Origin: Tepidiforma thermophila
GTDB lineage: Bacteria; Chloroflexota; Dehalococcoidia; Tepidiformales; Tepidiformaceae
Direction: 5' to 3'
Assembly: GCF_002563855.1 (NCBI RefSeq)
Contig: NZ_PDJQ01000001.1
Span: 1,860,001-1,924,000, forward strand
Length of the DNA: 64,000 bases
Made by a program: the position numbers and the translations under genes. Below, in pieces: positions 53,301-63,381 of the stretch. The notes beneath the pieces were generated by a model. The model saw only the letters and a program-made list of their open reading frames with translations. It had not been told where the DNA came from and searched no databases. Numbering within the stretch: the stretch's first letter is position 1; every line of letters begins with the position of its first letter.

Positions 53301-55139
53301 TCATTCGACCGTCACCGTTTTCGCAAGGTTGCGCGGCTGGTCGACATCGCAGCCGCGGTGTACTGCCACATCGTAGGCGAGGAGCTGAAGCGGGATCACG
53401 GCCGCCACGGGCTCGAGCCACGACGAAACGGCAGGGACCGTTATCACCGCATCACAGAGCGCCGTGAGCTCGGCGTCGCCTTCGGTGATGACCCCGGTCA
53501 CCGGTCCGCCTCGCGCCTGGATTTGCTCGATGTTCGAAATCATCTTGGAACGCAAGGCATGCTGCGTGGCGATCGCGACGGTCGGGAACGTCGGCTCGAT
53601 GAGCGCAATAGGGCCGTGCTTCATCTCCCCCGCAGCGTAGCCTTCCGCGTGGATGTAGGAGACTTCTTTGAGCTTCAGCGCGCCCTCCATCGCAACGGGA
53701 AATGCAAGACCGCGCCCGAGGAACAGGACGTGCTGCGCTGCGGCCAGTGCGACCGCCCGCTTCCGGATCTGGTCGCGGCGTCGCAGTACATCTGCGGCCG
53801 CACGCGGCAGCTGGGCGAGGTCGTGCAGGTGACTCGCAAGCGCCTCTTCGGAGAGCCTCCCCTTCGCCTGCGCGATGCGCAGTGCCAGCAGGTACAGCGC
53901 GACGAGGGCGGTGGTGAAGCACTTCGTGCTGGCGACGCCTCGCTCGAGCCCGGCGCGGGTGTACACCGTTCCGTCGGCCACCCGGGTCGTCTGCGCACCT
54001 TCCGTGTTGCAGACCGTCACCTGGAGAGCCCCCGCCCGGCGGGCGACGGCCATCGCTTCGAGGACATCGACAGTCTCTCCGGATTGCGAAACGCTGATGA
54101 CGAGCGTCCGGTCATCCAGGACCGGGTCGCGGTATCGGAACTCCGACGCGTTGTCGGCAGCCGCCGGGAGACCCGCAAACGCCTCGATGTACCGTTGACC
54201 AATCATCGCAGCGTGCAGGCTCGTCCCCATGCCGAGGAGGACCACGCGCTCGACTGCCGCGAGGCGGTCGCCTGCACTGCCGAGGTCGTCGAAGTAGAGG
54301 GCAGGCGGGTCGAGCGTCGCCAGGCTCCAGATTGTGTCGGTAATCGCCTCGGGCTGCTCGTGGATTTCTTTCAGCATGAAATGCGGGTACTGCCCTTTGA
54401 GGGCAGTGACCGGGTCGATTGGGATCCGCCTGCGCTGCAGCATCACCGGCTCGCCGGTGAGCGTGACCACCTCCGCCCCGGACGGAGTGACACGGGCGAC
54501 CTGCCCGTCAGCGAGGAACGCGACCTCTTGCGTTAGCGGCAGGACAGCCGCCAGGTCGCTTGCCACGATGGTCTCCTCATTACCGAATCCGATGACGATG
54601 CCGCCTGCGTTGCCGAGGCGCGTGGCGACGAGCGTGCCCGGTTCGTCGACCGTCATCGCCACGAGGGCCTGCGAACCCTCGAGCCGGCGCGCCGTCCGGG
54701 CGAGCGCCTCGAACAGGTCGGCGCCGGCCGCCATCTCTGTTTCGAGCAGGTGAGCAACGGTCTCGGTGTCCGTTTCGCTCTGGAACGCGTGCCCGCGAGC
54801 CTGCAGCTCGCTCCGGAGTGCGGTGTAGTTTTCCACGATACCGTTGTGGATGACGACAACGCGTCCGTCGCAGGAGCTGTGAGGATGCGCGTTCCGGTCG
54901 CTCGGCCGGCCGTGGGTGGCCCAGCGGGTATGACCGATCCCGGCAGTTGCAGCCGGGAGCGGCCCGATCGCCGCTTCGAGGTTCGCGATCTTGCCCTGTT
55001 TTTTCGTGATGGCGAGGCGGTCACCGTCGAGTACTGCGATACCGGCCGAATCGTAGCCGCGGTACTCGAGGTCCTTGAGCGCTCGCAAAAGGATCGGCAC
55101 AGCCGGGCGGTGGCCCGTGTACCCGACGATTCCACACAT
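53301..55139 (-). CDS. glmS: Glutamine-fructose-6-phosphate aminotransferase
   Basis: GlmS makes glucosamine-6-phosphate for peptidoglycan. The 612-aa protein begins MCGIVGYTG: the glutaminase Cys follows the initiator Met, then LEYRGYDSAGIAV and GHTRWATHGRPSDRNAHPH. The isomerase half has two SIS domains (GMGTSLHAAMIGQRYIEAFAG; FLGRGLAFPVAMEGALKLKEVSYIHAEGYAAGEMKHGPIALI). The conserved tail QPRNLAKTVTVE is intact. GGAGG is about 10 nt before ATG 55139. The leader carries a glmS ribozyme (55262-55410), so expression is set by the product. Confidence 0.97.
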   Translation of the reverse strand: MCGIVGYTGHRPAVPILLRALKDLEYRGYDSAGIAVLDGDRLAITKKQGKIANLEAAIGPLPAATAGIGHTRWATHGRPSDRNAHPHSSCDGRVVVIHNGIVENYTALRSELQARGHAFQSETDTETVAHLLETEMAAGADLFEALARTARRLEGSQALVAMTVDEPGTLVATRLGNAGGIVIGFGNEETIVASDLAAVLPLTQEVAFLADGQVARVTPSGAEVVTLTGEPVMLQRRRIPIDPVTALKGQYPHFMLKEIHEQPEAITDTIWSLATLDPPALYFDDLGSAGDRLAAVERVVLLGMGTSLHAAMIGQRYIEAFAGLPAAADNASEFRYRDPVLDDRTLVISVSQSGETVDVLEAMAVARRAGALQVTVCNTEGAQTTRVADGTVYTRAGLERGVASTKCFTTALVALYLLALRIAQAKGRLSEEALASHLHDLAQLPRAAADVLRRRDQIRKRAVALAAAQHVLFLGRGLAFPVAMEGALKLKEVSYIHAEGYAAGEMKHGPIALIEPTFPTVAIATQHALRSKMISNIEQIQARGGPVTGVITEGDAELTALCDAVITVPAVSSWLEPVAAVIPLQLLAYDVAVHRGCDVDQPRNLAKTVTVE

Positions 55140-55261
55140 GAGGCTGGCTCCTCCGGTCGCAGGCATGGGGTGCCTGCTCGCTTGTGGCACGCGGTGCCCG
55201 CGAGCCGGCACAGGCGACAGCGGGCAATCAGACAGTGAGGAGCGAAGAACGGGAGGGGAAC

Positions 55262-55410
55262 CCGTGCACGTGGTGCGCTTTTGTCACGCGGTCACCCGGC
55301 GTGGTTTGTGCGTCACCTGCGGCTGTGCAGCCGGGGGGCCATCCGCCGAGTGGTTCGATACTGCCCCCGCCTCGTCATCCGCGCATAACCGCGCGGACCT
55401 GGCGCTTGCT
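55262..55410 (-). ncRNA. glmS self-cleaving ribozyme/riboswitch
   Basis: On the minus strand the glmS leader holds all core ribozyme elements in order. These are AGCGCCAGG with the cleavage site between A 55406 and G 55405, a P2 stem CCGCGC/GCGCGG (55391-55396 with 55379-55384), and GACGAGG ending at about 55370. Next come TATCGAA and TCGGCGGATGG, then CCCCCCGGCTG...CAGCCG, and finally the AACCACGCCGGGTGACC...GTGACAAAA region equivalent to P3-P4. These match the conserved glmS ribozyme core I recall from the Bacillus subtilis sequence. GlcN6P binds as cofactor and triggers self-cleavage, lowering glmS mRNA. Ends are approximate. It fills most of the 374-bp gap before glmS; I see no gene there. 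Confidence 0.88.
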
Positions 55411-55513
55411 GGTGTGCTCCCTGCGTGCCTCTGGTACTTCTGATGCTGGCCTTCCCTGGACCTACCTCCGGCCTGGCGTCGCCCCAGAGTGTCCGGGGTC
55501 CGCGTCTCGGCCG

Positions 55514-63021: not shown

Positions 63022-63381
63022 TGGTGGAGACGCGGGAGAGTTGAACTCCCGGTCCAGAGAAGGTCGGCTCCGGATTATCCTACAGGCTTTCCCACCGATA
63101 GAGGTCTCGCCGGGGAACTGCAGTGGTGGTCCCCACGTTCTCCGGCCAGCCGATGCGTCTTTCGCGGGCGGTATCGGCGTCAGCCCGCGGCAGCCTGGCT
63201 TTGGTGACGCCCTACCCCGGCGCTACCAGGCCGGGCCCCGGGGAGGACGGCTCCGCACTAAGCGGCGAGAGCGAGTTGGCGAGTGTTGCCGTTTATTTTT
63301 GGCCGCCTGATTAACGAGGGTGACAGCCAACCTCGGCCTGCTATCCGGCTACCTGGCTTCCTGTCGAATCCTTTCGTCCCC
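63022..63381 (-). ncRNA. ssrA: Transfer-messenger RNA (tmRNA)
   Basis: tmRNA rescues stalled ribosomes with SmpB. The minus-strand RNA starts GGGGACGAAAGGATTCGACAGG and ends CGTCTCCACCA. The first 7 bases (GGGGACG) pair with CGTCTCC of the 3' end, and the T-arm has the AGTTCAACT loop. An mRNA-like part ends ...CAA CTC GCT CTC GCC GCT TAG, giving the tag end QLALAA. The resume codon is uncertain: GGC would give a 10-residue tag GNTRQLALAA. Length is about 360 nt. A TGCTATGAT -10 box (63393-63398) lies 12 nt upstream. smpB precedes it on the same strand. Confidence 0.9.

Follow-up and report, generated by a model that had tools for sequence, protein, structure and literature searches.

A predicted canonical glmS ribozyme in Tepidiforma thermophila and a candidate glnA-linked relative in Anaerolineaceae

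A survey of glmS ribozymes from 2011 reportedly placed all but two of the known representatives within glmS mRNAs. In Bacillus subtilis, an excess of glucosamine-6-phosphate (GlcN6P) leads to self-cleavage of the ribozyme, and the resulting fragment with a 5′-hydroxyl end is degraded by RNase J1 (reviewed in PMC3997798). The canonical P2.2 helix contains a bulged residue at position 6 (PMC7125110); shifted P2.2 bulges were inferred by Andreasson et al. from mutants, in which C4A was rescued by A6C (PMC7125110). The structure numbering used below follows PMC7125110 and PMC11602151.

The DNA region analyzed here (the window; 64,000 nt of the T. thermophila genome, phylum Chloroflexota) contains an element of the same class, RF00234. 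Judging from its sequence, we consider this element, with a probability of roughly 94%, to act in the glmS leader as a functional riboswitch of the canonical glmS ribozyme type.

The glmS leader of T. thermophila

The earlier note on this DNA had proposed a complete glmS ribozyme in a minus-strand glmS leader, which is borne out by the RF00234 covariance model and by the intact glmS gene downstream. The scan with this model, suggested there as a check, revealed a significant match (67.5 bits, E = 2.3e-13; gathering threshold 37 bits) spanning model positions 1–167 of 167 (Table 1), and this is the single match in the whole 2.74-Mb host genome (one contig). The 3′ edge of the element is located approximately 121 nt from the glmS ATG, and the encoded protein was assigned to GlmS by TIGR01135 (735 bits; cut-off 418) as well as by NF001484 (753 bits). 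No sigma-70-like promoter was recognised upstream of the ribozyme. The window also carries a tmRNA gene (RF00023, 141 bits) at position 63022–63381 of the minus strand.

Table 1. Coordinates and loci of the features described in the text (window positions unless a locus is named).
Feature	Position	Strand	Basis
glmS ribozyme (RF00234), whole model	55260..55417	-	cmscan
Predicted cleavage site A(-1)/G(+1)	55405..55406	-	family alignment; AGCGCC invariant in 29 relatives
P2.2 pseudoknot helix, canonical register	55344..55404	-	100% paired; no variation among 29 relatives
P1 hairpin closed by GGTTAT	55377..55398	-	compensatory changes at six of nine pairs in relatives
P2.1 pseudoknot helix, CGA (55374-55372) with TCG (55358-55356)	55356..55374	-	100% paired, invariant
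P2 helix GGGGGC/GCCCCC around core	55334..55368	-	100% paired; two pairs changed on both sides
P3/P4/P3.1 domain	55266..55333	-	P4 and P3.1 covary in relatives
Shine-Dalgarno-like GGAGGAG, 8 nt ahead of glmS start	55148..55154	-	direct reading
glmS, glutamine--fructose-6-phosphate transaminase, 612 aa	53301..55139, ATG at 55139	-	TIGR01135
glnA-linked variant RNA, example loci	L229:1972-2215, L208:5953-6197, L211:174-422, L246:1578-1835, others among L186-L253		
f78 genome loci with glnA-linked variant	L061, L063, L065, L067, L069, others		

The core motifs named in the earlier note were all found in the window element: the site A55406/G55405 CGCC, GACGAGG, ATCGA, TCGGCGGATGG, the CGGCT-GCAC-AGCCG hairpin, P4 capped by GUGA and the TGACAAAA internal loop. 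The cleavage position predicted there, between 55406 and 55405, agrees with the family alignment. The hairpin closed by GGTTAT is likewise present, but it corresponds to P1 in the published naming and not to P2, as had been stated.

In P2.2, residues 55404–55401 and 55399 (C2, G3, C4, C5 and, beyond the bulged A6, G7) pair with 55348–55344 (C52, G53, G54, C55, G56) to give C2-G56, G3-C55, C4-G54, C5-G53 and G7-C52. The P3 hairpin occupies positions 55333–55320, and P4 positions 55317–55272, with the GUGA loop at 55295–55292 and an A-rich internal loop. Since the GCAC of L3 (55328–55325) pairs with GTGC at 55269–55266, forming the P3.1 pseudoknot, the ribozyme reaches to about 55266. Both core pseudoknots and P3.1 are present, and the core shows no departure at any residue.

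Leaders from 29 Tepidiformaceae genomes (the window's own family) were aligned and the pairs of the published structure, including its three pseudoknots, were counted. Standard pairs were found in 93.7% of pair cells, compared to 85.8% after shuffling and 32–38% when the partners were slid, and 21 pairs changed on both sides, a value equalled in 0 of 500 shuffles. The core sequences AGCGCC, GACGAGG (with the active-site guanine that closes it), ATCGA and TCGGCGG are invariant among these relatives; variation falls in P1, P3, P4 and P3.1, while P2.1 and P2.2 do not vary, as should be the case for a predicted active site. The folding energy of the single window sequence is not distinctive (z = -1.2), a value that counts for little in a GC-rich sequence with a pseudoknotted fold. 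What supports the fold is its match to the family model, along with the covariation seen among the relatives.

A chance match of the covariance model, for which the high GC content of the DNA and nothing else could be cited, has a negligible probability, given that the genome contains a single match, correctly placed ahead of glmS and found in the same arrangement in relatives; it was rejected on the basis of the E value together with the covariation. The evidence for the ribozyme is sequence-based, which would also allow a decayed or non-cleaving relative whose fold has been kept for another role (e.g. in translation or in stabilising the 5′ end of the mRNA). Such a relative is, however, highly improbable: every known active-site residue is unchanged, and decay would not preserve an invariant core alongside covarying supporting helices, as seen in the 29 relatives.

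For the canonical ribozyme, the usual glmS mechanism is plausible in this host. Plentiful GlcN6P would bind the preformed core pocket as a cleavage cofactor, and cleavage, presumably dependent on GlcN6P, would fall between A55406 and G55405. Degradation of the 5′-hydroxyl downstream fragment, possibly by RNase J as in Bacillus, would follow, and GlmS output would thus drop when its product is high. Since the host genome encodes RNase J (601 bits against a cut-off of 400) as well as MraY (253 bits against 192), the decay step and the peptidoglycan route are both available, and the presence of MraY makes the genome compatible with a link to cell-wall precursor supply.

Distribution and ancestry

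Analysis of the distribution of RF00234 matches revealed their presence in 125 of 400 Chloroflexota genomes, representing 74 of the 224 genera sampled, and in 33 of the 37 genomes of Tepidiformaceae, including all six of the genus. The surprise at the host that the earlier note had implied is therefore unsupported, and the window ribozyme is an unexceptional representative of an established class that is common in this phylum. Among the four Tepidiformaceae genomes with no match, two do not contain a full-length glmS and in a third the gene is truncated by the end of a contig, so that an intact glmS lacking the element occurs in a single genome, of 1.4 Mb. Outside this family, in the same class, a match was detected in 1 of 24 genomes (one genome from each of 24 families).

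This patchiness among families, together with the fact that Firmicutes are the best-known hosts of this RNA class, could point to a recent acquisition of glmS and its ribozyme from that phylum, in which case both would be foreign to the lineage. Such an acquisition is very unlikely, considering the frequency of the element in the family and across the phylum and the GlmS tree, which places the window protein among those of its own family and class, interspersed with proteins of class members that lack the ribozyme. A recent import is not indicated by this placement; an old transfer from Firmicutes may have occurred, the tree having sampled Chloroflexota alone, with no Firmicutes or other phyla.

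The window copy adds to the known range of a well-studied ribozyme a family in which it is nearly universal and in which the core is unchanged at high GC. The survey that it prompted matters more than the copy itself.

The glnA-linked RNA of Anaerolineaceae

Some genomes of one family in the phylum sample (labelled f78) contain two or three RF00234 matches. When 71 f78 copies were examined with their flanks, all but one (the third copy in genome G473) were located ahead of either glmS or glnA, the latter encoding a type I glutamine synthetase (TIGR00653, 533.7 bits; one protein scanned). The glnA-linked variant was searched for among the 84,980 species genomes of GTDB using a DNA pattern, which finds close copies only and misses divergent ones. 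This search yielded 68 matches, all in entries titled Chloroflexota or a subgroup of it, mostly Anaerolineaceae. The pattern is present in 55 of the 121 sampled f78 genomes; in the 400-genome phylum sample it occurs in only five, all of them f78. Cultured strains carry the variant, namely Longilinea arvoryzae KOME-1 (two copies), Bellilinea caldifistulae GOMI-1, Levilinea saccharolytica KIBI-1 and Ornatilinea apprima P3M-1, which makes it directly testable.

The pattern matches precede glnA in 59 of 68 cases, and three are placed at a contig edge. Three others (L214, L222, L253) lie ahead of a glutamate-synthase-region gene encoding approximately 400–430 aa (FMN), which was recognised by PF01645 at E = 1e-4, barely above the cut-off (one protein scanned); this gene is a predicted second nitrogen-assimilation target of the variant RNA. 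A further three (L197, L224, L247) precede a gene for a protein of 44–58 aa with a conserved C-terminus of about MDxETIEILLADKIATGG. No Pfam or NCBIfam match was obtained for the two such proteins scanned. This small protein is perhaps a regulator of glutamine synthetase.

In glnA leaders whose 5′ part is readable, GCG[G/A]CUG follows the cleavage site, with A53. This sequence was found in none of the 38 glmS leaders of f78, of which 14 contain GCGCC[U/A]G with G53 and 24 contain GCGCA[U/A/C]G with A53. The 5′ part of one glnA leader could not be parsed, and two leaders parse with G at position -1, one of them probably a mis-parse at an internal insert. P2.2 of the variant pairs fully only with position 4 as the bulge (C5-G54, U6-A53, G7-C52), a shift of the kind inferred by Andreasson et al. 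from mutants. Residues 5 and 53 were also seen to change together in the glmS leaders of f78, f49, f55 and others, as C5 with G53 or A5 with A53, which suggests two natural P2.2 arrangements in glmS-linked copies.

Sixty-five dissimilar pattern-selected copies were aligned. AGCG, ACGAGG, AAAAUCG and AUCAGCGG are invariant in this set, an invariance that is partly imposed for the letters fixed by the pattern itself (AGCG, ACGAGG, AAUCG, UCAGCGG); the same core letters are found in f78 copies that the Rfam model recovered independently of the pattern. The variant has thus retained the residues from which glmS ribozymes form their active site and GlcN6P pocket. Pairing was observed in 91.5% of cells, compared to 79.3% after shuffling and 40–47% when slid, and 45 pairs changed on both sides, a count independent of the search pattern and reached in 0 of 500 shuffles. 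On this comparative evidence, the variant is a real structured RNA. Its leader is closed by a helix, P0 (GGAGA with UCUCC; 88% paired), in which five of six pairs changed on both sides, and two hairpins (P2a/P2b) are inserted between P2 and P2.1. Inspection by eye of the window's genus for an upstream-downstream helix of the P0 kind gave only 3–5 weakly conserved pairs (GGGAG/CUCCC), on which no such helix is proposed there.

Two further observations were made in the course of this analysis. An extra helix between the leader 5′ of the cleavage site and the P3-P4 junction (e.g. GGGAAAGA/UCUUUCCC) was noted in L172, L175, L176, L179, L180 and glnA-type RNAs, and could keep a short 5′ fragment attached after cleavage. 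Moreover, L182 (G070, one MAG with 8% contamination) carries a glmS-ribozyme-type RNA (GCGCACG, A53) that is not ahead of glmS; inspection of the translation by eye placed it ahead of genes for a DegT/DnrJ-like sugar aminotransferase and a Gfo/Idh/MocA-like oxidoreductase.

The glnA-linked RNA is a candidate nitrogen-control ribozyme, by which nitrogen assimilation would be controlled through cleavage. It seems likely that Anaerolineaceae duplicated an ordinary glmS-type RNA and re-used the variant with bulge 4 in P2.2 for nitrogen control by mRNA cleavage, with GlcN6P serving as a proxy for glutamine supply or with a different ligand. Of these, GlcN6P is the simpler hypothesis because the pocket is unchanged. 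No description of the variant was found in the searched literature, which is weak evidence of novelty as most subscription journals lay outside the search; the passages considered from full-text papers that name both Chloroflexi and this ribozyme contain no account of a glnA-linked copy. The variant looks new. If it cleaves, glmS-type ribozymes extend beyond amino-sugar synthesis, and nature offers rearrangements of P2.2 with the bulge at position 6, 5 or 4.

Comparison with known glmS ribozymes

The glnA-linked variant shares with glmS-linked copies the fold and the invariant core residues, is scored by RF00234 and shows covariation of its own. It differs from them in the glnA or other nitrogen genes located downstream, and in having GCG[G/A]CUG with A53 in place of GCGC[C/A]NG. 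It also contains P0 and P2a/P2b, although glmS-linked copies within the same family have inserts similar to P2a/P2b as well.

The window element, like the RF00234 ribozymes of B. subtilis, B. anthracis and Thermoanaerobacter tengcongensis, has the A/GCGCC site, the P2.1/P2.2 double pseudoknot with bulged A6, P3/P4 with a GNRA loop and an A-rich internal loop, P3.1, and a position in the glmS leader. It is distinguished from the best-known representatives by its GC-rich helices, its short P1 loop and its Chloroflexota host, whereas the core residues are identical throughout.
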